Positions 7,419-63,605 of a stretch of DNA of 64,000 bases are shown here, one piece after another. The notes under the pieces are model-generated. The model was not told where the DNA came from and made no database searches. It saw only the letters and a list, made by a program, of their open reading frames with translations. This DNA comes from Marchantia polymorpha subsp. ruderalis. Taxonomy: Eukaryota; Streptophyta; Marchantiopsida; Marchantiales; Marchantiaceae. The translations under genes were made by a program, and so were the position numbers. Positions within the stretch are counted from its first letter, which is position 1. Each line of letters begins with the position of its first letter. The DNA lies in assembly GCA_037833965.1 (NCBI GenBank), contig AP031355.1:4427501-4491500 (forward strand), read 5' to 3'.

Positions 7419-8452
7419 CTACATTGCTCCTCTCCACAGAGGATTCTTGAGAGCTTCAGCTACTAATAGTTTATCATTGGTAGATTGTGAAATCTCCACT
7501 ATGTTGAAGGAGCTGTGACCTTGTACATGATACTTATTCCGCAAAAACTGAAAGGGTCTTTTGTTTTTTTCACTAGGATTACGTCTTGGATCAGGATCAA
7601 GAGTCTTGTAAAGTATATATGTTTGTGGCGATGCTGGTAACGGCGATGAAGATGTTGATGTTGGTGAAGATGATTGTTGATTCGTTTGGTATGCATTCAC
7701 TTCAGAATTGTCATCTTCTAGGTGCAACAATTTGTCAGATGTCTCATCTGCAGTGTCAAATTCACTGAATAGGTCCAAAAACTTGTGGATATCTTGGAAA
7801 TGACCTGATACATTTTCAAAAAATGTTGCATCATTTGTAGAGATGATTTGTCCGATCACTGGATCATAGCAACGACATGACTTGGAGTCATCAAAATAGT
7901 CTACAAATACACACCTATGTGCCTTAGGTTGCAGTTGTGTTCGTTTGTCTTGTGCAATATTCACATAAACAGTTAACCAACAACACGGATGCGAGATAGA
8001 TCTGGAGACGACCATGAAGTTTCTCAAAAGGTGTTCTGAGATTGAGGGCGCCACTGGCACAAGAATTCAACACATAGTTAACAGCTCGTAGTGGCTCTAT
8101 CCATATATGTGAAGTAAAATTGTATGTGTTATATATGCAACGAGCACCTTCAAACAACATATGATTTTTTCATCTAGAAATAACATTCTGGTGAGGAGTT
8201 GCTATTGTCGTGAGTTGTCGAGTGATACCTTTCTTCTCACAGTAAAGGAGAGGTGGTCTCCTCCTCTATCAAATCAAAGTGCAGTGACTTTTGGATTCCA
8301 ATCATGTTCGGTGTGCCAAACCGAAGCCACCTTGTGTGGGTAGAGGTTTTCTCAAAGAGTACAAATTGTTGGAAGTGATGCAAAGTCTCACTTTTGAGAC
8401 GCATGAATTTGACCCATGTAAAATGGATATAATCATATGTGAAGATTAGCAA
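7419..8452 (-). pseudogene. Copia integrase remnant
   Basis: Three overlapping frames carry successive integrase pieces. Codons at 8237-8452 give the catalytic-core start (IFTYDYIHFTWVKFMRLKSE). Codons at 7924-8160 give ARCIYNTYNFTSHIWIEPL followed by NYVLNSCASGAL. Codons at 7419-8060 give the C-terminal region (KAHRCVFVDYFDDSKSCRCY, then DPVIGQIISTNDATFFEN), followed by a Ser/Pro-rich linker towards reverse transcriptase. The motifs match Ty1/copia integrase in order. The frame changes show a dead copy. Confidence 0.85.
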
Positions 8453-8824
8453 GTACTTGAACCGGTTCCTGCTTCAATTGGTTTGCAAAGATAGTTGGGG
8501 ACTAACCGTAGTGGACGAGTTGTCTTATTAACTGCAAGTTTGGAACACATGTCAGAACACATGTCTCGCAACGTCTGTCTCTTTCAACCTGGAGTCAAGG
8601 AAGCCCATGCACAAGTTGTTTTGAAGCCATATGATATGTTGTTTGATGACGAATATGACACAACCTTTTGTGCTAGAGATCGGTGAGGTCGAAGTTGCTT
8701 GAAAACAGTTGTTCTCAACGAAGGTAGATGATCCAATAAGGTTAGAAGGCTTATCTATTCGATCAAATCGTTGAAGCAAATGACTGAGAAAATGAGCATC
8801 GAACTGTTGTATCTGAGTAAAAAG

Positions 8825-9130
8825 TCAATATAGTTGACAGCAAGGATCACATTGGCCAAAGAGAATCGACCTTTGAAGATTGATCCTATTGAGTAGGAAA
8901 CGATATTCAGAGATGAACATTTCAAGAAAACCTGAATCTGAAAGTTTTCCTACTACCAGTGAGTTCTTGGTAAGACTTGACACATAAAGAATAGGTTTGA
9001 TCTCTTTACTTGAATCAACTCGGAAAGTTCTTTTGCCAATAACAGGTAAACGAGTTCCACTAGCTATAGAAACTTCAGAGTGAGAGGAGTCTGATTGGTA
9101 TGAGCTAAACATAGACATATTATTTGTCAC
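8825..9130 (-). pseudogene. Copia protease / pre-integrase remnant
   Basis: The frame carries GTRLPVIGKRTFRV and LYVSSLTKNSLVVGKLSDSG. These match the stretch after the copia aspartic protease, where an ADGT..PI.G.G pattern precedes LYVPSLTKNLLSVGKL. The catalytic DSGA itself is not visible, so the N-terminal protease part is lost or frame-shifted. Confidence 0.75.
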
Positions 9131-9696
9131 CTGACTACTAGCAACACTAGTCTAACAAGTATTCTTTAGATTCGTGTAAAGCCAAGGCTTCTAGCTCTAC
9201 TAACTCACTATCCAAACCATCTTCTAGTCCGTCAATGCAATCGTCTACTAAGTTCGCTTGCACCTTAAATCGGCACATGTTAGAAGCACGGAGTTGTAGC
9301 TGCACTATTTGCTCATCAACTATCTTCAAGTCACAATCATATTTCCAGTGATTTAAAGTACCACAATAATTACGACGCGTATTTTGTCAAATTGATCCGG
9401 TTCCATTTTTCTCTCGATAAGCAAAGAATTGTGAGAAGTCTGACTGAGAAGACTAAAAAGAGGGATGCTGAGAACGTTGTTTGCAAAAGTTGAACCGTGT
9501 GATTGCATTGGCAGTGTCATACTCTTGATGACTGTCAAGCCAAGTACTTTCTATTTGAAAACGTTGTACCAGATCTGTGAATTCAAGTGGAGGATCTCGA
9601 GACAAGTCGCTGCCGAAGTTTGAAACAAATGGTGCCCAGGAAAGTGGAAGACCCTTGAGAGTGTAATGGATTAGATCACTATCAGAAAATCGATGA

Positions 9697-10116
9697 TCAA
9701 TTGCAGCAAGTTGGATCTTGAGAGACTTTGATAGTTAAAAGGTATTGTTTGACTGTGACAGTAGCACGCAGCTTAAGAATAGCAAGCTTCTTAATTAACA
9801 TCAACCGACGTTGAGCATTGTTGGATTGATACAAAGTGCGCAATTCAGAAGAATTTTCTTCAAATTTGACGATGGAAGAAAGAATGTCAAGAGAGAAACT
9901 GGCATGTATCATAGTCATTGCTTTGATGCGTCGGCGGCAAACAATTGCATCGTCTCCAGCACCAACAGGAACCGGATCGAGTATGGTTCTCTCGTAGATC
10001 CCTTCGTCGTGAAACATGGTTTTAAATCGAATAGACCAATTCATGTAGTTGCTCCGGCCCATGAGTTTTTCTTCGGGAAGTAACTGTAAAACAGAGTTGA
10101 AGTGGTTGTCCTCCAT
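9697..10116 (-). pseudogene. Copia gag N-terminal remnant
   Basis: The frame starts with ATG shortly after the primer binding site and encodes 139 residues. It includes LMGRSNYMNWSIRFKTMF, the usual L.G.NY..W...M signature of plant copia gag (UBN2-type). Downstream continuation is broken. A further gag-like piece may lie at 9147-9329, but I could not identify a zinc knuckle. Confidence 0.8.
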
Positions 10117-10224
10117 GGCGGCCGGGAAGTACTACGCTATCTAGCATGAGAGAACACTACTATTAGAGTAAAAAGAAGTAACAAACTTGTCAAGATTCGT
10201 TTGCTGTACAGGATCCGAACACTT

Positions 10225-38072: not shown

Positions 38073-39618
<1,546 letters not shown>

Positions 39619-42600
39619 GTGGGTATCGGGTGATGCTGCTGAAACGACGAAGCAGAAATGATGAGCTTCCAGTTTCCAGTCAGCAAATAATTATCTCAAA
39701 CTCAATTTTCGGTACTTCAGGCCGAGTCTACGTTCTATCAGATATCAGACATGATTTTGAATGAAACAATAAATGTGATCAGACAAGGCGTCAGTGAGGA
39801 AACCAGTAAGCTCCAAAACGAACTACCATATATGAGGTACAAAAAACATTTGAAGAAGGATTCATGTAAATTGAAAGAGGGTTGTTGGTCGAAGTCATTT
39901 ACTATCTGAACGTGATGCAGAGTCAATGACTTGTCAGGAAGGTTTTCTCGTCCACAAGCTGTTGTTGGAATGATGGACCTGATGAGAGACAATGAACATA
40001 CGAATGTCTTGGGAGGTTGCGGAGGTTTTATATGTATGTTCGAGTGCACCAGTAGACACGTCGCTTGCCAAGTCAGCCCACTGCACTCCTCCATGGTAGC
40101 CGCAACCCAAGGAGGCTGAATATACTTCACATTCATATGCAGTGCAGGGTATCATGATCTTCGGTGGCGACTCTCAGATGTCACGTTTTTCAGATTCGTC
40201 ATCGTGTACTTGTTTGGGGTTAGGCTCTGTGATCGTGTACTGGTTTGAGTTCAGACTCTCTGATCGTTTTGTTCACAGTAGCAGGAGGTTCCAGTGCACG
40301 AGGGTCAGAAGGAAGCTGATTCGGAAGGCCCAATCTGCAGTAAAAGGCAGATATTGGTTGACTGGTCAAGCCATGGTTCTAGCTAGCGCTGGAGAGACAA
40401 GGATCATGATGACGGGTGATATCTGGAACAGCATTCTTCTTTTTCTTCTTCTTCAGGCGTGAGGGTGCTGTGTAGACCCGCGTGAGGTTGCTGCTGCTAC
40501 GACTCTGTGTACAATACTTAACAACCGAATGCAATCTTCACGTTTAGTAGCTTGCGTTGGTCGATGCATCTCGTTCGTCTCTCGGAGTGGACTACAATTC
40601 TGGTGCTGGTTGGAGTCTTTTGTCTCATACTCATGTTCTCAGATGTCCCTCCGATCAGACACGGTCAACACATCGCTTACTCGCGTCCATAGATCCGAAC
40701 ATTGCGATGCGTTCACTCTACAAGTCGTCCTTGTCGATTTGCCTGTCGGAATATCGATCATGCGAGAATCTGGTTGGAATCTACGAGTGAGCTCAGATTA
40801 TCCGAGCCTGGCCGAGGTATGGCCTGGAGCTGCGAATTGTCATGCGTCATTCATCCGCTCCCTGGCACCGAAACCAACCAGCTCTCAGCCTGCCCGGTCC
40901 GTGTTCCGTCTGTTGAATGCAGGCAGGCAGGCAGGCAGGGTGCGGACGCCATGGCTTTTAGTCGAGATCGGGCACATCACCGTCTGCATCGCGGCAGGAA
41001 ACTCTGCTGACTTTCTCCCGGGGAGGGGGATGGGCACGGAGAAAATCAGCAGACGGTGAAAGGATTTCTCTAGCCAGACTTTGATTCTACGTTTCATGAT
41101 ACACGATGATGGGCTGTCACAATGGTACACACACACACGCTCTGGCTGGCTCCATCTGCAGATGACGAGCGCTTGCTCTTGACGAGGTGTGTGTGCCCTT
41201 TCGAGGGACTCGAGCCATTCGTTTACTATTTAACAGTCCAATGCTGGAAAAAGGTAAATCTCTCCCCCATGAAGGTTGGTGTGAAATGTCTGCGCTCCTA
41301 CAATATCAGTTCATAGCTTGTTACTTTGGGCATCGTCCACTATATGCATACAATGTTCAGTGCCCCGAAATCAGAACAGAAATAGCAACATGGAATTCGT
41401 TTGTTCCTCAACTTCATCTGGTACGAAACATCTTGAAGCTGCATGTTTGTTAACATTTAAGAGCCTAATTTCAGATAAGTGAAGATGAATGTCATCAGTG
41501 AGGAAGGACTGAAGAGTATATGATGTGAGACTGGCTTTTGGAAAGGAAGACATGATTTTCAGTTTCTTTTGCTTTTACGCAGTCATAGGGTAAGAAGTAA
41601 AAACCATTTGTTGATTTCTTTTAATATGTTTCAGAGGAGGAAGAGGATGATGATGATGATGTGTGACTCCAGCTAGTGGCAGATACAGAAATTGGCTCAA
41701 GGACAAAACAGTTGTTTTTCATGAATTTCTCGGTTTTGAATTTATGCAAGGTGCCAGCATATCTTTACTTCAAGATAAAGTTTCGTAACTCGGAGTGAGA
41801 AACCGTTTTTAAAGATAAAATATTCAATTCGATCATTTATTTTCGTAATGAGCCAGTTCAGGCCCAAAAATAGGGCAACTTCTTCAATCGAGATTCTTAA
41901 GATTTTGTTTTTGGAAAGGCTATAAAAATTCTAAGACTTTGAGATAAAAATCTGAGGCTAATCATATAGTTTACTCAATTTCTTATTTAACGTTAGGAGT
42001 ATTATTTCTATGACTGAGTCATGAATGAGATTTGGACAACATATTTTACACTTCGTGAGAAAAAATGATACCACTTCTTATTGCTTACTTTCTTTAATAT
42101 TTAAAATTAAGTGTTAAAATATAAAGCAATACCTTACTTATGAATATTGAGCAAGTAAATTCAGCTTTTCTCTGGATTTTTTCCTGGATGTTCAAAAATT
42201 TGTTTAATAATTTGAAGCATAAATTTAATTTCAAAGATCAACCGTAATATCTTTGTTTCTTCTTATTAATATATAGTATAGTATAGTATAAGATACAGAT
42301 CACATAGATACAAATTTACATAAATATTTATTGATTATAACCTTTGTGCTCAATTCCAATAATGTTTTATTATTCTGGCAAGAAACTCATAATTAGAATT
42401 GAAGTATTCTTATTTAATTCATAATGATTTATATCCGTAATAAAAAAGAACATTAATATGAAAATACCTACTGCATTAAAATATAAGAATATAATCTCAA
42501 CTTGAGGTGATACGTTTAACCTTTGGATATCATAATTTTACTTCTAAGCCGTCCCATGTGTTTCTTTAATGAGAGTATATCCATATGTATTTTTCACATG

Positions 42601-45382: not shown

Positions 45383-47023
<1,641 letters not shown>

Positions 47024-50000
47024 CCTGACTCACCACTCGAACCAGGCTCCTGAACCACACTACAAGAGAATCAGCACATCGTCCTTGAGCTTCGTCGCTG
47101 ATTTGCACTACAAGAAATGGACTCTAGAGCTGGCACACTTCCAGAGTACAAAGTCCAGTCCATGATCAGCAAGGGATGGTCATGTCTACGGTCTGATGGA
47201 ATCAGGAAACAATATCAACATCAACACGAAAAGAGAAAGTGACAGCAGGTATCTGAGCAGCGTACAGTTTGGGTGCAGTTGTAGGCTATGGTGATGTTGT
47301 TGTTGTCGCAGACAACCGTCCTCAGAGTCTCACGAACTTCTATCTCAAACGAATGCCTGAGAGAGAAGGAGGGAGACCTGAAGACGAAGATGAATTTTTG
47401 GTCTGGCGTTGCAGACCTTTTATACGATCCGGTTTGCTGCACACAGAAGAATCCATTCCTTTGCGTGGGATTTTACATGATCCTCTGATATCGCCGGCAC
47501 CCAAGGCTGCAGGATGGAGGTCGATGGGCATGCACAGCCCCGTAAGCTCGGTGGTTTCATGTGGTCGCTCACATTCGTCGCTGATGAGGAGGACTCTGCA
47601 CTGCATCACAGCGCAGTACAGCCAGGTACGAACTCCAGATCCCTTCTGTTGGTGGGGTGATTAAGCTGGTCAAAGCAAGCAACACTCACTCTGAAACCTT
47701 CTCTATTACATTCCATTTTTGGCTTTCTGAATTGACTTTCCGTTCTATATTTTCTTCTCTTTCCTTGGGGCATCTGAAATATTTGAGCTTTTTCCGGTCT
47801 CCACAAATTTTCTCCAAAGTTGAGAACAGAAAGCTCAATGAAACTTGCTGGTGGCTAGATCAGGCGTGTTCACGTGTTGGAAAATCTTCCTGCTGGATGG
47901 ATTGCGGCTTTGCATCTAATATGATGACATGTGATTCAGGTACAGAGAAAACAGCGAAGAGAGGATTCAGTTCGATTCCATGGCTGTTGTTCAGATGATT
48001 TTGCGTGATTTGCTCGGAGACTGTTGCTCTGCAAAGAGCAGGCCTAGCTTGTCACGTATAATCATCATGTTTAGCCATTTGTTGGCCTGTTCACTGTACT
48101 TCGTGCTAGCGAGATAATCGGCTGCCCTTCCACATCCTTTGAAGTCAACTGCATCAAGCGTACGCGTAAGCACTGTGCTCGTCTACTTAGCTCGTCACTT
48201 AGTTGATGTCACTCGCGAGTCGAATTACTACAGATCTTTATCAGACTTTTGCTGCAAATTGCATCCGTGCACGAGGTTGTACTTCGCTTTCGCATGCACG
48301 TTCTCAAGAGGGTTATCAGATGTAGAACAAGTCGGGGGCAGCTTGTCCATGGCCACTCACCTCCACCCCGCCCCGCGCGCAGCGTGTGCGGAGGATGAAG
48401 GATCTCTACGACAATGTACAAGTTATGATGATGATCTGAATGGGAATCTGCGTTTGTAAGAGAATTCGTCCGAGTGGATCTTGAGGGCAAATTGAGAACC
48501 GCACATGGAGTGGACAAGATCAACTGCAATGTATAAAGTTGAACTAGCTGGGAAAGTGGATGTGAAGGTCGGTGTGATAATGATAATGAAGTCTGAATTT
48601 ACTTGAACTATGAATGAGCACAAAACCAAGCTTTTCAACAGACTTCAAAGAACCGATCCTGCAAGATGTGCAAAAGCTTTGCACATCTCGAACGACTACA
48701 GCTCACAATTGAGAATTCTGTTTTGCAAGAGGGTGACATGCGTCGACTTTTTCTACTCTAGTATAAAATCTAAAAACTCCCCCTGGTTCGGTTTCCTTCC
48801 AGTACAGACAGCTGTAAGGCAGGGGCAAGTCCGTCTGGCCTCTCTCGGTCGGTATCTGAGTCTGAGTGAGCAAAATCAACAACTGTCCTCAGAGTTTTCC
48901 TGACAAATTGGACACAACACAAGCTCGGGACGTTGCTCAAGATATTCAGACACCCGTGCACTTTTTATTACCTTCCACAATAATGAACACGAATTTTCGG
49001 AAGATTACAAGTTTGACACCCACAATCTCGCTCCGTGGACTGCAAAGAAGAACTGCACAGTCCTTCGTGACTCGTGACTACCAAATTACCAAAGCCACGA
49101 AAATATGGCGTTCCAAATACAGATTCACGCTGCCAACCGGTTTAAAAGGCCCCCTCACGATCTGCAACATGGAAATGTTGTCCCGGGTGCACGTGCGTGC
49201 TCACGAGCGTGGCTACAGATCTCGAGCACGGTACGGCATTGACCGACCGAGTACACACTGTCACGTGACCGGATATCGAGCGCGGTCATGCTCCGAGCAC
49301 CTGCCGACCGGGCACCATAACCTGACTCGGGCAGGCTCCAGGTACCAGACCTGGTTTATGACCGTTCTCTCCGGACATAGAAGTATGCTGAATTTGGCAG
49401 AACCGGTGACGCGCCCGGACTCCCGCCCGGAAATTCTTTCTAAATATAGAACACGCGCGACGTTTTCGAGTCTGTCCTGCTTCCGCGAGCCACGAACGAA
49501 TATTTGATGGCATATTCTCGGACACCGTGACCACGATGTGTTGTTCGTTCTCGTGGGCCAAAGAGTTGCGCTCGATCTGGTCCTGCTGCTGCTGCTGCTG
49601 CTGATGTGGCAGTGTGAATCTGGAGTTCCGAAGGTCCAGCTCGTCGGTTCTTTGCATCGACGGCAGTCGACGTGTGTGTGCGTGTGTTGCTTGCTGACAG
49701 GGCACGGTTGATATGGAAGGGGCGGTCTCTCCGTGTCGCGTTACAGAGCTCTGGTGACTTTCTGTTGTCCGAGTTGGGGACAATGTTGTCGAAATGAAGA
49801 CAGTGCAAATTCGTCCCGACTGATGTACAGATCGCTTAGAGTTCCTGGATGTTCACTGTGTACACTAATCCAGCCCATCATGTGCTTCATGGAGAAGTGG
49901 TAAAAATCACATTTCTTCAGCTCAGTTTAGATTATCCTTCCCTTGCAGTGGGTAAAACTTTCTAGCCCAATTACAATAAGAGAGACAGAGCTAGATTGTG

Positions 50001-51529
50001 GTCTGATCTCACACTAGTGCCATTAGAGTTCAAAGTTACAATCTCGTGTTGCTAAATTCGTGTATCTCACAATCAAGTTTCAGCATGTTTTTGTCAAGTT
50101 TTCAAAAATATGCTGAGATTATTCTCAAACTAGCGTCTTCATCTTAATGCAATATGATCCAAACCCGTAATCGACGGAATAGTTGCAAAGCCTTTCGCTC
50201 AGACTGCGAATCCTTTTCAGAAATCCTGTTGCGAAAAAGATCAGGACTCTCAATCTCGTGTTGTATTTCGCTGGAAAAGTCTTTACGCCTCTTTTTCCCC
50301 TATTTGCCAATACTCTATTCAATTCATCAGACAAGACACTCAGCAGGTTTACTTTTTACTATCTTTTCACATTTACAAGTTATCACTTCCATCATATATT
50401 CGCTCTTAAACCGCATCAACCTTCTCCTTTGTGTTGAACGTACCAAGCCATTATCTTTCCTCCACTTCCCGCTGTAACCTTTCCCGATCATTCCCGACGA
50501 ATAAATTGTCGAAGTGTGATTACAACTATCTCATTGAAATCAAATCAGAGGGACAGTTCAATGAGAGAGACTCAACGTTGAGAGTGAGTTGGACATTACA
50601 TAGGTGATAGGTAGTATTTTACTCTTCGGAATGTGAAGTAAAAAAAATTAAAATTGGGGACGGGGAAGAAACAGTTCTAAAGAAATAATAAAATACATAT
50701 CAAGCCAACTAACGTAGACATAACCGAATTGTGACAAATATAAGCAAAGTGTTTCCTGTAGGTAGATGATGACACGATGACTAGGTAGGTACAACGTGAA
50801 CAGAAAAATTTAACTGAATGAATTGAGCATCTTAAATGAGTATACCATTAGATTTAGTGTTTGTAATTGTTTGAGCCCCAACATTTTTTTGATTGAAATA
50901 GTGCGCAGTTTAATAATTATTTCTGATTACTCATATAGTAATTTACTAATAATAGTTTTAAACTTCTCTCACGTAGGTTCAATATCCAGTGCATCGAGAC
51001 AATAAATATACTATTCAGGATAATAATCTTTTTAACTCATCATTTGTATTATAGTGAAAGTGAAACGAATCCAATCACTCTTTTAAAAAACAATACTATT
51101 CTATTTTGTTTGAGTTGTTACTCAAACACATAGCATACATTTTAAGGCCGCAGCTAATGAGACTGGATGCGTTCCAATGGAAATGGAACTCGCGGATTAT
51201 TTCCGGTACGATAATGTAATCCGAAGCTTCCAAACGGCTAAGCTGCTGGCGGTGAATCAGGTGTTAGTATAGCTAGTCAATTTCAAGCGACAAATTTCAA
51301 ACCAAACGTGCTACCACATTGATTGGACCTCACGACCACACCATGCAGTTTACAAGAACCCGTCCACAGGAAGTTTAGAAAGGCAGAAAGAAGAAAGACC
51401 TTGTGACCGCATGATCGGGTAACCTCGCCTTGTCAAACTTCAAATCCAAATCCGTGTAGTCCAGACTGATAAAGATATGCAAATATACATATGGCGATGT
51501 CTACCGACACTACCACATCATTGTTTGAA
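47024..51529. other. Upstream region of the second peroxidase and intergenic DNA
   Basis: No supported gene. Overlapping antisense frames occur at 48866-49507 (plus, 213 codons) and 49286-49783 (minus, 165 codons). The minus-strand frame includes a seven-codon CAG (Gln) run at 49583-49603. A minus-strand frame at 47991-48173 (FKGCGRAADYLASTKYSEQA) looks protein-like but is short. None has a recognisable family. Confidence 0.5.
49583..49603. repeat. CTG/CAG trinucleotide repeat, seven units
   Basis: Seven uninterrupted CTG units. On the minus strand they would encode glutamines in one open frame. Confidence 0.9.
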
Positions 51530-53394
51530 TTATAAAGCAGGAAAGAGCTGATGTAGATTGGGCGTGTAAAATGACGGGTGGTCACAAAGCATGGGCACGT
51601 GGAATATAACGGTGTATATACAGCTTGGAGCTTCTTTGATGGTATGTTTAAATGCATTTCCCGGCTCTGTTGAGCAGACAAACCTCACCTGCACAAATTA
51701 ATGCTGTAAATCATACTCATCATACAGTCGTAAAACTCGTACTATTAGGTCGAGTAATGAGCACAAAATTGAAATTTTTTTTCAAAGTAAGTGTGCAATC
51801 TGTCGTTATTTACAACGCTTCATTTCCTCTCAAAGTTTGCCAATGAAACCATCGACCTACATCAGTCTGCCTTGGCTCATTCGTAAGATCACATCGTGTC
51901 CCGTTTGTGTACAAATGTGTGCGTGATACCTACAAGGTCAGTGTGGAATAACAAGGGCATCAACACCCTAACAATCAATGATACAAATTAGCTTGCTTGT
52001 GTTTATAAGTCGCGACTTCACATGCAATCATAACTCAATAAATGAACTTTATATGACCTGTCATCATCGGTAACTGCCTGTCATAGTCCGAGAGAAATCA
52101 AGCTATATCTCAAATAGACACGACTTTCATATCCATTTGCAGACCCTACCTTTGGGCAGCACTTTGAGAGCGAGGGTCTTTCTGCAAAAATGCGTAATTT
52201 TCGTCCCGATGCAAAGCTGCAGTTGCTTCCTCGTCATATCTTCCAAGAGTGAACTCTTGAGTAACGACGGCCTGGGATGAGAGGTGAAGGCACATCAGGT
52301 GAGAATATTTACGTTCACCCGATGCTGAAAATTTCAATCCATAAATGGCGTAAGGTCTCCTACTTGTGGTGTACGTCGCAAGTTTTATAAAGATTTACCC
52401 AGTCACTAACTAACCTAGCACACATGTCCTTAGTTTGTCAGAATTCAAACCAAGTTCACTCTAGGTATCCACAACTATGCTCTGACAAAATGCAGAGCAG
52501 GTCGACCTTCTAGCCAGTGGTGTCGACATGAAACTGTCTGATATCTTCGTTGTAACAAAGCTCATACGTCCACCATCCCTCAAGCTACAAAATATCCACC
52601 ATTCCGAGCATCAAATAACAAGTATCACCTTCCTAGTATATTTAGGCTTGCCTTCATACAAGAACTTCTAAATCAAACATACGTGATCATTTGTAATTTT
52701 GCAAGCTCTGTGAAAAAACTTCTGTGACCGAGCTCATTATTTCAATAACGTACTACTTGAAACTATTCTTCACACTCTACGAGAGAGAAAATTAAAATAT
52801 AAAGAAAGGAAAAAACCTTACCCAACGAGAACATTTGTCCTTCAGTGCTAACAGTAACTCATCAGGAGTTTTTCTTGTACTCCTTGCCTCGGTGACCAAG
52901 CCAATACTGTTCCCATTTGTTGACCTTCATCTTTCTTGGCATTTTGGGTCACATGAGGATCTGAAAGGACACACATGTCCATCCCTGTCGGTCATTGGTA
53001 CAATTTCTTGGTCTGGTTCCTATAGAAACGCCATCTTTAGATAAGATTGTTCCCTGGTACCCAAAGAGACGGAAAAGAGGAATGCCCTCGATTTTGCGAG
53101 AGGTGAAGGAGAGAAGATGTTAGTATGAAGCTCTTTTCGAAGCATGAGAAACACTTCATGCTTTTACCCTACAATATTTCCGATGAAACTTCTGCGTCAT
53201 AGAGAACCGTGCATACAAAGTCTCCAACTTTTCACAGATAGTCCGACGCATTCGACTCTTTGTTAGCTTATATAGAGGACATAGCAGATCATTGTATTGG
53301 TGTAGAGGTCTCACTGTGGGGTGAAGGGAATCAACCGGGTGCAGCTAAATCTTGCACTTAGGTTCTTGAAAGCTTTGAACGAAGGGCATCTCTC
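51530..53394 (-). pseudogene. OS9: OS-9-like ER lectin (ERAD, MRH domain), disabled copy
   Basis: Six exons can be read in order with GT-AG introns: about 53315-53394, 52822-53019, 52507-52584, 52150-52271, 51861-51929 and 51530-51688. They carry the OS-9 landmarks: HPVDSLHP, EIVPMTDRDGHVC, RKTPDELLLALKDKC, EGWWTYELCYNEDIRQFHV, VVTQEFTLGRYDEEATAALH, then YTNGTRCDLTNEPRQ and VRFVCSTEP with PMLCDHPSF. OS-9 binds trimmed mannose glycans of misfolded glycoproteins in the ER and hands them to the HRD1 ligase. This copy is broken four times: TAG at 53345-53347, TGA at 52927-52929, TAG at 52510-52512 and a +2 (or -1) shift near 51911-51918. The signal-peptide exon was not found. Introns are kept, so it is not a processed copy. 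MRH tryptophans and most cysteines remain, which suggests fairly recent loss. Confidence 0.85.
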
Positions 53395-53980
53395 CTGTCA
53401 ACAGAACAGGTAGATTACATATTATGTTGGTGATATGCAATCAAAACAGTTCAGTAGCAAGGAATGATCTAGTAATCATACACTCAAAATGGCACATAAA
53501 ACACCATCTGCTATTGTGGTTGAATTTTTCAGTTAGTTTCTGGATAACGCAGGGATGACTTTCCAAATAAAAGTGAACCGTACATACACTTCACAGTTGT
53601 CGCCATTTTGTCAAAATTGCTGAACCTCATTTGAGGATAGAAACTTTGTCTGACAATTAGACAGAATCATGAAACCAATTACCTTCCCCAAAAGTGATGG
53701 ATGTGCATGGATTGCAGACACGCCCCAGGAGAATCCAGGTTTGTAATGCATTGAGCTGGGGCAAGTCTTCTACGGAGATTGTTATGCAAGCTTAGCTGGT
53801 TGGAGAACCAGAATTCCTTCCCTTAAATCTCAATCTTCGGCGACGGCTAGTCGAATCATAAACACCCCGTGAAGCAACAAAAACATCTTCTCATCCTTTT
53901 CCACATTGAGATGAAACAAGTGGAATATTCATCGGAGAAAGCGAAACTCATGAAAGGCTATTACTTCCAAGACATCTTAA

Positions 53981-54560
53981 TTACCCTAAATCCACCGTTT
54001 CAATGGCCACAGAAGTTCCTTGCTCCAAGAACCGCTGTGTCCATTGAAATTTCCAACACAATAATCTGGACGAAGAGTTCGGTAGCATAAACCCCGCTCC
54101 TTCTCTCAAAGCCGGGACGACATGAAATTTCTTGGCCTCCTGGCAATCGCAACGCATAAGCTTGAATCCAAGAGACCACTCCCCAAATCGAACTGCAAGC
54201 CCCGGACAACCGCTCATTGAGCTCCTCTTCATTGACACCATCCATCTTTGAGCAACGAAACTTCTCTGCTCCAATTGTGTTCCGAGGGTGCTGGGGAGTG
54301 CACGAAGGTCGAATCTGTTAGTTTCCAGCAAGAGGTTCTGACTGCAAACTAGGGTGGTGTGATTTCCCATCATAGAGATCGCTGCAAAGTTTATCCATGG
54401 TGACGGACTCGCGATTTTGGTCCGGTCCCTACCTTGCTTCGAGACACCATCGACAGAATAAAACCTCAGGGGACGACATTCATCGGAAATAGGGAGAGTT
54501 GAGTACAGATCTGGAAATAAGATTCCACTTGTTGTCCAGTGGACGGAGACTTCCTCGGGA
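53981..54560 (-). other. Unassigned open frame, about 190 codons, possible gene relic
   Basis: One frame stays open from about 54560 down to 53981. It includes IPSTYRIPEEVSVHW, FPDLYSTLPISDECRPLRFY and TLVCSQNLLLETNRFDLRAL, and an overlapping frame also looks protein-like (NERLSGACSSIWGVVSWIQA). The composition is protein-like, but I do not recognise a family. The tone is reminiscent of the variable region of plant F-box proteins, a weak impression. No start or splice structure is convincing. Confidence 0.3.
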
Positions 54561-57500
54561 ATGCGGTAGGTTGATGGAATAAGCTCCCCAACATTATATT
54601 TCTATCATTATACTATCTCGATTCAATTTCCGGTGGCACCAAGTATGAGGTTAATAATGTATACTACAGTGACACGTATCATCATCAGTGGTAGCATTCT
54701 GTAAGATATGATACAGTTCGCCATTCAGTGACTTTGTGTTCATTCATATGTCTCAAAGTTGTGGTAGTGAAGGCTACCTTCCCATTGGAGGTGCCGATTT
54801 ATAGATGATTAGTAGTTTAGATTCAAATAATTATCTTTATCCTTTATTACGCTTTTTCATAAATTGATAAATTTATTCTTAATGATATTATGAGATAAAA
54901 GAAATAATACATATGTATATGTATGTGGTGTTTGAATTTATATGGCTCTCGTCCGGTTCGAGCAAAATTCTGGCCCTCGGCCATCGTTACTGGTGCAGTG
55001 TCTTCGTGCGCATATATCACGAAGCTTGTGTCTCATTCCGACTGTTTGTTTCTCGTTGCAATTTGGGGAGAGAAGATGATGGACGGATACATCGAAGTTA
55101 GCTTTACTTGGTGGGCACGGAGAACTGCCACTGCGGGATTGTTGGTGTGCGTTTTCTTAATCGTTCTGATAACTTGGTGAATGTCTCGATTCTAACATTC
55201 TCGATTATTTTCGGAGTCAGGGTGACGTATAGTGCCCTATTAATTCGATGGCCGGACTGCGGCATCATCAACCCATCGCACGCCAAGTTCTCGTAGCCTG
55301 AATCATCAGGAACGTCATGCACTTTCGAGAGGTGTATCGATGGAATGTGCCAGTGCGGAACTGGCGTCTTTCTTGAAAGCGAGGCATTTTGAAATGCAAA
55401 CAAGCAGGAATACAGCATTCCCGAGGAACAATGTGGCAATACAGACCTCGATCCGCTCTTGCGCTTGTGGCAACCAGGCCGTGCTGAACTAGTTCACAGA
55501 GACCCTCTGGTGAGCCTCTCCTTATGATGTAATAGCTTTGAGTCATTAGTGCGTATGTGGATATGTGCGCTCCAGGTTCATAAGATTCTCAGCGGTCCAG
55601 AAACATGAGCCGAACCATTAAAGAAATCGATGGTAAAGCTGGATAGTTCGATCGGACATGTAAAAATCATCTATCCGCAATTGTGTACGACGAGATGAAC
55701 AAGCTGTGCACGTGAAGACTAGATGCTTCAGAAAATGCATCATCTTCCTTTCGTAAACTCTGCTCACGGCAGCATTTGCGTATTGTTCGGGCATATGGTC
55801 ACATCTTGGTCGAGTTCATCGATAAACTCAGAAGTAAGAGAGAGCTGTAGAGATGTGAAAAGTACCTGGAATGTATTTGGTGTGTTCTAGGTTATACCTA
55901 TTCTGTCTTCTCTGCCATTGGCTCACAAATTTATTTTAGACAAGGTTCTTACTTTCTCTCATCGAGCCCTCCCTCCCTCCGCTTGCTGTACAAAATTGCA
56001 GTCTTGGGCACAACAACTTTTCCGTTTTTCACAACCTTGATGTGCCAAGAGACCCACTCTTTCGAAGTTGACGAGTTTTGTTTGAAAATTCAGTGAGCGT
56101 CAGATAATCTTGATACTTGAGAAGGTATCTCCAAATTAAGTTGATGAGGTGCTATGACACAGAAGACTAGATAGAGACTAGCAGTTGGCTGACCTGAACA
56201 TTGAGCATCCATCATCTTCAAACCAGCTGCCGATCGTTGATCATTGCCATGATCACTGATCGACCTTATCGCCCATAACGACTGTGAGTCTCCAGCTCGT
56301 TTTCGAAGCTCAAAACGCGACAAGCTTGAGACCAACGCTCACTTTGAAAGTACTCCTAACCGGTTTTCAAGAGATTCTGCAGGTTCTGGACATATGGACA
56401 TCTAAAGCTGTCCTCACATGGACAAGCAAGCTTGAAGCCTTCGGGGCGCTGCAAAAAGCCAGTCCTTATGAAGCACTTGAGAATTCAGTACCACTGGATT
56501 AGTCATGTCTGTGTCAGTATTATGTCATGACTCTAACGACGTATTCAGGTTTATCTGCTTTAGTTCTCTTTTCTCTAAACCTGTCGGGCAGGTTGACAAT
56601 TTCAGAGCGGAGAGTTGCAGTTTATGACTATTGTTAAAGTCAAATATTTGGAATTTCGATTGTTAGAGCGGTAACTTTGAGTCGTGTAGTATAGAAGAGG
56701 ACAGTCAGTCAGTAGTCAAAGACAGAAGATTCAACTCCATCAATTTGGCAACTTTCATCGCTGACTCAACATGCAGCGAAATCCTCCTGTTGCACTTCAA
56801 AGCCGGACTCAAGTAGATTGAAATTCTTGCAGATGATTCGCACGACGCCCGTAGTTAAGGAGAAAGACATAAAATCATCAATTCAAATGGTTACATCGAT
56901 CGGATTTTCATCATGTACTGTTGTAAAAGTTAAGAAGACGGCTGCATGAACGTTACTATAAGTACCATTCATGCAGGCGAGCGAGCAGCGACCGGACATG
57001 CGGTCACCGTCAGTAAAATTCTGATGGCTGTAGCCTGAATTCTTGTGGTACATTTAGACGGAGATCTCCGCCGGGCGCAAGGTTAGGACACTCTATTCTA
57101 CACAGTTCCCTTTTCTCTTGTCTCGTGACTACGTACCAGCTCCTGAACTGCTGTTCTTGGGTCAGGAGTCGGCCCGCTATAGAGTTTCAAAGCGAATAGC
57201 AGAAATCATTCAGTCTTGGTATCAAATCCATGGCTTGACGCATGTCTGCTTCAGCTCGGTTCAATTCTGTCGAAGTGCGCCGCCAAGTGCGCTTCGATTT
57301 ACATCTGTGGGCTTTGCAGACTCTTAATAACCTTCGACACTGGACGAGGGCTGACGCTGCCCAGATTTACTCCATATCATATTGCGAAGGTACCTGAGGT
57401 TCCCTCCTGATCCAAGCCTTTCACGATTTCTTACAAGTTTTGGAAGATTTTATGCTCGCTCGCCTGATGTCTTCATCCTGGTCGCTATACTCGAAAATTC

Positions 57501-58378: not shown

Positions 58379-59822
58379 ATGGCGCACTTTCCAATACCAC
58401 CCCCACCATCACCACCATCACCCCCACGATATATGGACGCAAGTGATCCGGACCAGGTAACTCAATCCTATGGCATTGTTGAAGAAAATAAGGGGGGAGG
58501 AAATGGGAAAATCATTCACTCTTAATTTAGATCCTTAGATGAGTTTGGCCCCGCCACCTTCGCCGCCTAGATCCATCGTCAGTGCAGCGATGAGAATGAA
58601 TACCTTAAATGTCAGACTCGAGTGTCGAACGAATCATCTGTAGAGGTTTGGTTCGATCGCCCAAATGATCGAGGAGATCATGGAAAATGGACTAGTTGTA
58701 AATCTGAGTTTTGTGCCATGTGGTTCTCGCATTTGCTTTCCTGCTCACGAGTCCATCTCAGGCATTCAGTAATTTAGAGTGTCTGTCGAATGGAGAATAA
58801 ATAAATGCCAAATAGCTGCCAAAAAAGGTAATACTGATAAAAATGACGAATTTGGAAACTTCCAGCGTGTACCAAGCAGAGGAGCTCTCATGGGCCGAAA
58901 TAGAAATAAGCCCCGCTTAATGATAAAGCAGCTTTCGAACGACAATGAAATCCATGACCACTATACAACCCTGCAATTATTGGGCAGGGGCGGAGAAGAC
59001 CTTGCGAGGACTTTCGACGTTAGATTGGTGAGACACAAACGGATCCGATGTGCAATGAAGGTCCAATCGCTTGTGCCGGACTCGGACGAGGACGAGATCG
59101 AAGAGGACGCTGAAGGACGTGTGATGAATGAAATTCAAATCTTGAACAACGTACTTCCTCCTCACAAGCACATAGTCGAGCTCCGCGATATCCTTCTAGG
59201 TGTAGAGAAATTCTTCATCGTCACCGAACGATGTGCCTCAAATGATTTGGTAGAGTTTTACCCAACTGCCAACAACACCAGAGCGCGCAACATCTTTAAG
59301 CAATTAGTCGAAACCGTCCAATTCATGCACGACTATGGAGTGGTGCATTACGATTTGAAAGCGCAGAACGTTCTGTTCGACACGACGCTCATGAGGGACA
59401 TCAAGATCATAGACTTCAATAAAGCCAGGTATTACCGAGACCTGGCCACCAAGACCTATAATAATTTTAATCCGGACCGATATTATTGGAGCGATCGCCA
59501 CAATTTTAGACCGGGTGATCCTTACAAGCAGACATTGCCAGATATCAGACAGTTGGGCAATATTCTCTATAGCATGTTGGCCGGCACCGAGGTCCAACTC
59601 GGTGTGGACGATTTCTATGAGACGGACGACCTGCCCGAGGTTAGAACGCAGGTCTTCAGCAGTGAGGCCATTCATTTGTTAAGTCTGATTGGACCTTCCA
59701 AATGGTTAATTCCTAACCCCGGGCCCCGGTCCGCGCTTAGGTTAACCAATAATATGCGTCTTGAGCCCGTCACTCCTGTGCCGGGCACTCGAGAGATTCT
59801 TCAGCATCCTTGGATTGCTTGA
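58379..59822 (+). CDS. Divergent protein-kinase-like protein, about 357 aa (DFN variant)
   Basis: Proposed exons are 58379-58456 (Pro-rich, 26 codons), 58539-58577 (Pro-rich, less certain) and 58866-59822 (kinase domain, acceptor CTTCCAG). The domain runs from LLGRGGEDLARTF through AMKV (ATP lysine), NEIQIL (helix-C Glu), VVHYDLKAQNVLF (catalytic Asp and Asn), IIDFNKARYY (DFG changed to DFN at 59412-59420) to REILQHPWI. The Gly loop lacks its third glycine. There is no APE motif after the activation segment. The Arg before the catalytic Asp is Tyr, so it is a non-RD kinase. An acidic insert (DSDEDEIEEDAEG) follows strand 3. It may be a weak kinase or a pseudokinase. It is the tandem partner of the gene at 62.3 kb. 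I do not recognise the family; it is not a receptor-like kinase. Confidence 0.8.
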
Positions 59823-62256: not shown

Positions 62257-63605
62257 ATGGCGGACGGGAGATATCCGATAGATCACCGAACCGAAAGAGA
62301 CAATCGCCCACATAGTCCTGATAGTCCGACACGTCACCGAAATCGAGAGGTAATTTCTCCAGAGGACTTCTTTGTTTTGAGGTTTCCGTCAGTTCATTAA
62401 CGGGCGAATTTTAATAACGACGCAATTTTCTCTGCCGTAGAGAAAATAATGCCCCTGAAAGCAATACGACGTGTGCTGATTTATTCTATGTCAGTCTGAG
62501 GCCGTCAGCATAGTAGATAAGTGGCCATTTATGATGATGCTGAATCTCAATGTAATTGCGAGCGAAACGCAAAAGCACGATATCGTGCCGAGTATCTTCT
62601 GATTCGGAATTTCCCATCATCGACTGTTGATGTTTGGGTCAAAATGATGAAATTGACTCGTAAAACTTTCGTGCAAACCAGTCGCCGGAAGATCGTCGGG
62701 AACCAAGTAATGATCCCGGACCTCTGGGTCGAAACGAAATTCAGCCCTATCTTCTATTAAAGCAGCTAAGCGATGACACAGAAATTACAAATTATTACAC
62801 ACAAATCAGAGAACTCGGTCAGGGTTCGTATGGAAAAATCTACGAAGTTCAACAGAGAGAGAATCCAAGGATCAGATTAGCTTTAAAAGTGCAACCAAAA
62901 GCTCTTGCAAATCCAACTCAGGGCGGAGACGTACAGGGAAGATTGGATCGCCACCTGAAGCGGATGTATCATGAAATAATAATATTAAACAGAATACTGC
63001 CTCCTCACAAACACATTCTTCAAATAAAGGACATTCTCATAGGTCCAAACACCATCAACCTCGTCACGGAATTATGTTCGACCCAAACCTTGAAGGACTT
63101 TTTTCCAGGTGCCACGAATGCCACCGCAGCCAGAATCTTCAAACAACTGGCCACCACAGTTCACTTTATACATCAGCACGGAGTCGTGCATAATGATTTG
63201 AAATCGGTCAATGTCCTCTTTGCCAGTGCTGGGATGCGAGACATCAAGATCATAGACTTCGGCATATCGGCTTATTATGAAACCATGGCCACCAGGACAT
63301 ACCACAATTTCAATCCACGCAGCTGGTTCGCAGAGGAAGAATTACGTCAGGCCGGTGATGGATATGCGTCGCCATTCGGAGACGTCGAGCAATTGGGCAA
63401 TCTTTTGCATTGCATGTTGAGTGGCAGAGATATAGACCCTACGGACTGGACCGATCCGGAACCGGACCCCGAGCCCAGGACAGACATATTTGACGACAAT
63501 GCGCTCCATTTGTTTGGCCTCATAGGGCCCTACGAACATCGCGCTGATCCGAGCGCTCGGCTTCCTGAATTGGAACAGATCCTCCAACATCCTTGGCTTC
63601 GATGA
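62257..63605 (+). CDS. Divergent protein kinase, 338 aa (tandem paralog)
   Basis: Exon 1 (62257-62349) encodes 31 residues rich in Arg, Asp, His and Pro. Exon 2 (62682-63605, acceptor AAACCAG) continues in phase. The kinase domain starts LLLKQLSDDTEITNYY and has a canonical Gly loop (GQGSYG), ALKV lysine, helix-C Glu in YHEIIIL, VVHNDLKSVNVLF with catalytic Asp and Asn, an intact DFG (IIDFGISAYY) and ends LEQILQHPWL. The HRD Arg is Asn (non-RD), and no APE motif follows the activation segment, which reads TYHNFNPRSWF. All ATP and catalytic residues are present, so activity is plausible. The closest relative in view is the gene at 58.4 kb, sharing the exon plan, PPHKH, MRDIKIIDF and YNNFNP/YHNFNP blocks. 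The CAMK-like end (HPW) is the only hint of group. Targets are unknown. Confidence 0.85.

Follow-up and report, generated by a model that had tools for sequence, protein, structure and literature searches.

A probable truncated OS9 pseudogene within a mosaic locus of Marchantia polymorpha

A broken, intron-bearing copy of the gene for the ERAD lectin OS-9 lies on contig C6 (AP031355.1) of Marchantia polymorpha subsp. ruderalis, within the 64,000-nucleotide stretch analysed here (the window). The question raised by this locus is whether a second OS9 gene has decayed in place or whether part of a gene located elsewhere has been deposited there. The copy is most probably a truncated unprocessed OS9 pseudogene, that is, a partial DNA copy of the gene on contig C5 that was pasted into an autosomal locus on C6.

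The OS9 fragment and its parent gene

Six OS-9 exons are present in the correct order on the minus strand between positions 53394 and 51576, as a first-pass annotation made from the letters of the window had described. A tblastn search with the protein product of the C5 gene recovers them as six hits with E ≤ 1, the values ranging between 9e-19 and 7e-8 against a best E of 0.034 in 30 shuffled windows, and PF07915 matches the window at 52522-52581. Within the genome searched (9 contigs, 241,466,482 bases), PF07915 has two matches at E ≤ 0.001, one in the window and one on C5.

The annotation had reasoned that such a copy implies either a duplicate elsewhere or loss of the function. A genome search for an intact OS9 found the duplicate, an apparently intact gene of eight exons on C5 (locus L003, C5:31557500-31567400) with 304 codons in 915 bases, a single terminal stop, and GT-AG introns. 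Loss of the OS-9 gene is rejected, and nothing points to a loss of its function. Its exons were placed by hand as follows:

Exons 1-4 of the C5 gene: L003 2775-2862, 3573-3655, 3950-4156, and 4395-4472
Exons 5-8 of the C5 gene: L003 4713-4834, 5053-5119, 5286-5398, and 5705-5861

The predicted product has a hydrophobic N-terminus and matches PF07915 at 2.5e-16 (60.8 bits, cut-off 27). Seven distinct PDB sequences match it at E ≤ 0.01, the best being ER lectin 1 (ERLEC1, 9.2e-35), and the others including human OS-9 (3.3e-22; MRH chain 3aih, 4.2e-18), an ER quality-control lectin (2.3e-7), and the OS-9 homolog 6vk3 (1.3e-6). The sugar-contact residues of the MRH domain (W-W, Q, R, E, Y) are presumably kept in the alignment with these PDB sequences. 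Across the MRH domain, the C5 parent resembles the OS-9/ERLEC1 family of ERAD lectins (PDB 3aih and 9og0, human OS-9; 6vk3, homolog), whereas the window copy has neither end of the gene and is unable to encode the protein. A long inverted repeat, observed by eye, lies downstream of the intact gene at L003 9240-9650. Among the papers listed in literature searches, none concerned OS9 in Marchantia by its title.

The copy in the window duplicates 2.58 kb of the C5 gene and runs from 54031 to 51452 on the minus strand, with 89.95% identity over 2608 aligned columns (blastn) to C5:31560435-31563021 (L003 2936-5522). The lower limit of 51530 assigned earlier is simply the next stop codon. The introns were duplicated along with the exons, as seen by blastn, by alignment, and by a DNA search of the genome against itself; they match those of C5, which upholds the earlier reading of a broken, unprocessed, intron-bearing pseudogene. 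A processed (retro)pseudogene is ruled out by the presence of introns. Both limits of the fragment are sharp, one inside intron 1 and the other inside intron 7, so that it contains neither exon 1 of the C5 gene, which carries the start codon and N-terminus, nor exon 8. Exon 8 has no match anywhere in the window by protein search (tblastn). The fragment is composed of the following parts:

51452-54031, minus strand: OS9 fragment with part of intron 1, exons 2-7 and their introns, and part of intron 7 (blastn, own-genome DNA search, alignment)
53315-53394, minus strand: exon 2 equivalent, with TAG at 53347-53345 (GAG in C5); its start is 3 bp shorter than in C5
52822-53019, minus strand: exon 3 equivalent, with an 8-bp deletion between 52979 and 52978, a later 1-bp deletion, and TGA at 52929-52927
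52507-52584, minus strand: exon 4 equivalent and start of the MRH lectin domain (WW), with TAG at 52512-52510 (AAG in C5)
52150-52271, minus strand: exon 5 equivalent, frame open
51861-51929, minus strand: exon 6 equivalent, with a 2-bp insertion (frameshift) near 51915
51576-51688, minus strand: exon 7 equivalent, frame open; donor GTCATT (GTAAGT in C5)

Genome-wide, the protein search listed 15 matches at E ≤ 10, eight of them to the C5 gene and seven to the window copy, with exons 1 and 8 found on C5 only; this search scored the best candidates only, such that weak OS9 remnants could escape it. Besides C5 and C6, the own-genome DNA search with OS9 found two C8 pieces, each of about 206 bp. 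The latter are arranged in tandem at L023 4559-4753 and 4964-5162 (C8:20856048-20856252 and 20856457-20856661), are 90-91% like the end of exon 3 plus intron 3, and represent another, separate scatter of OS9 DNA.

The largest defect of the window copy is the absence of its two ends. Of the four lesions listed earlier, all sites are real, but the tally of three stops and one frameshift does not hold. Two stops arose by substitution relative to C5, in exon 2 and exon 4, whereas the TGA near 52928 is a consequence of the 8-bp deletion upstream in exon 3 and not an independent lesion; the subsequent 1-bp deletion restores the frame (net −9). The frameshift in exon 6 stands. The exon 3 deletions, the altered donor after exon 7, and the missing exons 1 and 8 were absent from that list. 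The donor of exon 4 is weak (GTCGAA in C5), which leaves slight doubt about the 3′ end of this exon. Were the true donor located further upstream, the TAG at 52512-52510 would fall within the intron, and the remaining lesions would stand regardless.

A mosaic between two host halves

The OS9 fragment is the last of three foreign fragments (A, B, and OS9) that together form a mosaic of 2.95 kb. The two sequences that flank this mosaic, 54911-54399 and 51449-51288, correspond to a single place on C3 (4485165-4486528) with 71-95% identity, and the downstream half resumes 2 bp past the end of the OS9 fragment. The parts of the locus other than OS9 are:

54399-54911, minus strand: host locus, upstream part, 71-79% to C3:4485165-4485970
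54198-54401, minus strand: foreign fragment A, 74% to C6:13771749-13771995, including the start of a 102-codon frame there
54038-54192, minus strand: foreign fragment B, resembling a dispersed repeat
51288-51449, minus strand: host locus, downstream part, 89-95% to C3:4486316-4486528

In place of the mosaic, the C3 locus contains 342 bp (L042 4972-5313); this counterpart is a diverged relative of the host locus and not an allele. The first 46 bp of the downstream host part also match C8:6188183-6188228 (91%), and further downstream, window positions 51041-50457 are 68-73% identical to that C8 locus. A repeat of about 210 bp at L043 4000-4210 (C8:6187499-6187709) adjoins this C8 relative; it accounts for 39 of 43 rows of one genome search, among the best 40 of 65 candidates. 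The repeat that fragment B resembles makes up 16 of the 18 rows of its own genome search, with two pieces together at C2:2041356-2041816.

Fragment B ends about 6 bp before the OS9 piece, and 5-6 bp separate the matches at the A-B and B-OS9 joins. Shared bases occur at the 5′ end of the mosaic (ACC) and between OS9 and the host (GG). No significant inverted repeat was found between the flanks 54032-57000 and 48501-51451. The borders share a word of at most 5 bp, both at the OS9 ends and at the mosaic ends, and 5 bp is also the most frequent maximum among 500 random window pairs; no target-site duplication above chance was found at either set of ends.

An 81-codon ATG frame (54245-54000, minus strand) runs through fragment A, fragment B, and OS9 intron 1. 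Its first residues match the 102-codon frame at L044 4949, with no Pfam family, and neither of the two open frames that cross the 5′ junction matches Pfam at E ≤ 1. Elsewhere in the window, pieces of peroxidase-like genes (PF00141), which we take to be class III, lie in two neighbouring places on the minus strand (38076-39690 and 45386-45820). Two protein-kinase-like open frames (PF00069) occupy 58773-59819 and 62664-63602 on the plus strand, their DNA being 65% identical over 349 columns. Retrotransposon remnants at 7422-10131 (minus strand) comprise an SH3_retrovirus domain and, below threshold, a match to Copia gag.

Divergence and constraint

Between C5 and the window copy, exons differ at 32 of 660 sites (4.8%) and introns at 185 of 1901 (9.7%; Fisher p = 6e-5), and this lower divergence of the exons fits one constrained and one free copy. 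The exon changes are distributed over codon positions 1, 2, and 3 as 10, 10, and 12. Nonsynonymous changes number 22 at 514.7 sites and synonymous changes 10 at 136.3 sites, giving a ratio of 0.58 with a resampling interval of 0.29-1.39 (32 changes).

Models that assume 0.1 of the neutral rate for a copy under constraint were compared with the 22 nonsynonymous changes counted. With C5 constrained and C6 free from birth, 27.5 changes are expected when all introns set the rate (P = 0.17 for 22 or fewer), and 32.3 when the five faster introns do (P = 0.037). Constraint on both copies predicts 5.0 or 5.9 changes (P from 2e-8 to 3e-7) and freedom of both copies 50.1 or 58.7 (P from 7e-6 to 4e-8), and both models are rejected. 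Constraint on C6 for half of its life predicts 16.3 or 19.1, which is compatible with the count; this model is disfavoured by the truncation of the copy and not by the counts. Across about 200 bp that can be polarised by the two C8 pieces of OS9, 11 changes fall on C6 and 3 on C5, with 2 undecided.

Introns 4 and 5 differ at 20 of 453 sites (4.4%), versus 165 of 1448 (11.4%) in the other five (p = 4e-6), and one neutral rate fails to explain them. Their positions are:

52506-52272 and 52149-51930, minus strand: slow introns 4 and 5 of the window copy (C5 counterparts L003 4473-4712 and 4835-5052)

These slow introns may reflect gene conversion between C5 and C6, or conserved intron sequence and constraint on C5. 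An intron-borne RNA was rejected as the cause, as Rfam gives 0 matches up to E of 1 in L003 2700-5900.

Origin of the copy and its meaning

The chromosome on which the copy lies bears on the suggestion, made in the first-pass annotation, that one gametolog might have decayed on a non-recombining sex chromosome. U and V chromosomes do occur in dioicous liverworts, but the window is on a contig of 31.4 Mb (C6) and the intact copy on one of 33.2 Mb (C5). The only match to BPC (GAGA_bind) in the genome is on C1, a contig of 5,591,195 bp. Since BPC genes of M. polymorpha are located on both U and V (MpBPCV on the latter), it is the exact length of C1, and not its BPC gene, that makes it the U chromosome. 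The v7.1 totals given in passages of PMC13078153 are 248,042,680 for Tak-1 plus chrU and 242,451,485 for Tak-1, and their difference, taken as the length of chrU, is exactly that of C1. Passages of PMC9516144 describe MpBPCU, on U, as the feminizer of M. polymorpha. C6 and C5 are then almost certainly autosomes, and the reading as a decaying gametolog is rejected.

That the copy was once a complete second OS9 gene that later lost both ends would account for the survival of six exons with all enclosed introns, and the substitution counts are compatible with partial past constraint on C6. However, the host resumes 2 bp after the end of OS9, fragment B stops only some 6 bp before its start, exons 1 and 8 are seen on C5 alone among the best candidates of the protein search, and the data do not accord with prolonged constraint on the two copies, such that this history is very unlikely. 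The copy was most likely already truncated at both ends when it was made, contrary to the decay of a full copy that had been supposed. It is extremely unlikely that the copy is a functional second gene whose lesions are errors of assembly or base calling: the divergence from C5 extends over introns as well as exons, two exons are lacking, and the lesions are several and separate. In addition, a quality value of 82.9 is reported in passages of PMC13078153, if the assembly is Tak-2 v7.1. It is very unlikely that the mosaic has become a new transcription unit from the ATG of fragment A, with OS9-like RNA from further downstream serving as a source of small RNA or a decoy acting on the parent.

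The more substantial alternative concerns how the fragments were joined. A DNA transposon of the Pack-MULE or Helitron kind may have captured OS9 and its two neighbours, with the C3 and C8 relatives belonging to the same element family. Such elements typically unite several fragments from different places; here the foreign fragments are flanked by the halves of a host sequence that recurs on C3 and C8, and it is because this sequence is repeated that capture keeps some plausibility, though as the less likely course. Against it stand the flanks of the window copy, which lack a significant inverted repeat, and the absence of a target-site duplication above chance. Palindromes at E ≤ 1e-4 are limited to two short ones in the C3 locus, with none in the C8 locus, and the relatives found number only three and have different parts in common. 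Helitrons are recognized by a 5′ TC, a 3′ hairpin with a CTRR end, and insertion at AT; no clear Helitron ends were seen by eye on the alignment.

The mosaic most likely originated when a break was repaired by template switching (filler-DNA repair), and less likely through transposon capture; the 2-3 bp homologies at two junctions are weak evidence. Under filler-DNA repair, 2.6 kb of the C5 gene, from intron 1 to intron 7, would have been copied as DNA into C6, arriving with two unrelated fragments and replacing about 342 bp of the kind present in the related C3 locus. Such a copy would have been incomplete from birth: without the start codon and N-terminus in the first exon, the upstream region of the parent, and the last exon, it could not have made OS-9 and would have drifted without constraint.

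Gene movement through double-strand-break repair with filler DNA was reportedly described by Wicker et al. in 2010, a study that PMC3503983 cites. As in such movement, foreign genomic DNA lies here between host ends, with short junction homologies and no transposon ends seen; unlike in those cases, the empty-site comparison is only a diverged related locus, and three fragments occur in a row. Passages of PMC3503983 and PMC3445842 describe the pasting of filler DNA during break repair in grasses as well as capture by transposons. The joining of several fragments in one unit within repeated sequence is shared with Pack-MULE and Helitron capture, but terminal inverted repeats and a target-site duplication were not found here, and Helitron ends were judged by eye. 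For wheat chromosome 3B, passages of PMC3445842 report gene fragments and unprocessed pseudogenes at non-collinear sites and describe fragment capture. The window copy resembles these pseudogenes in being an intron-bearing, disabled fragment at a new site with an intact homologue elsewhere, and differs in that it resides in a liverwort and that the same genome reveals its donor as well as a related locus free of the inserts.

The window copy is an ordinary kind of genomic debris and falls into a known class of pseudogenes. A possible surprise is thereby removed, as the OS-9 gene of this genome is intact-looking and no decay on a sex chromosome is involved. For annotators, the exons on C6 call for caution, as they are not a second OS9 gene. 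Within a single liverwort genome, the locus neatly illustrates how a gene fragment can be lodged with other scraps in an autosome, and both its donor and a related locus free of the inserts are known.
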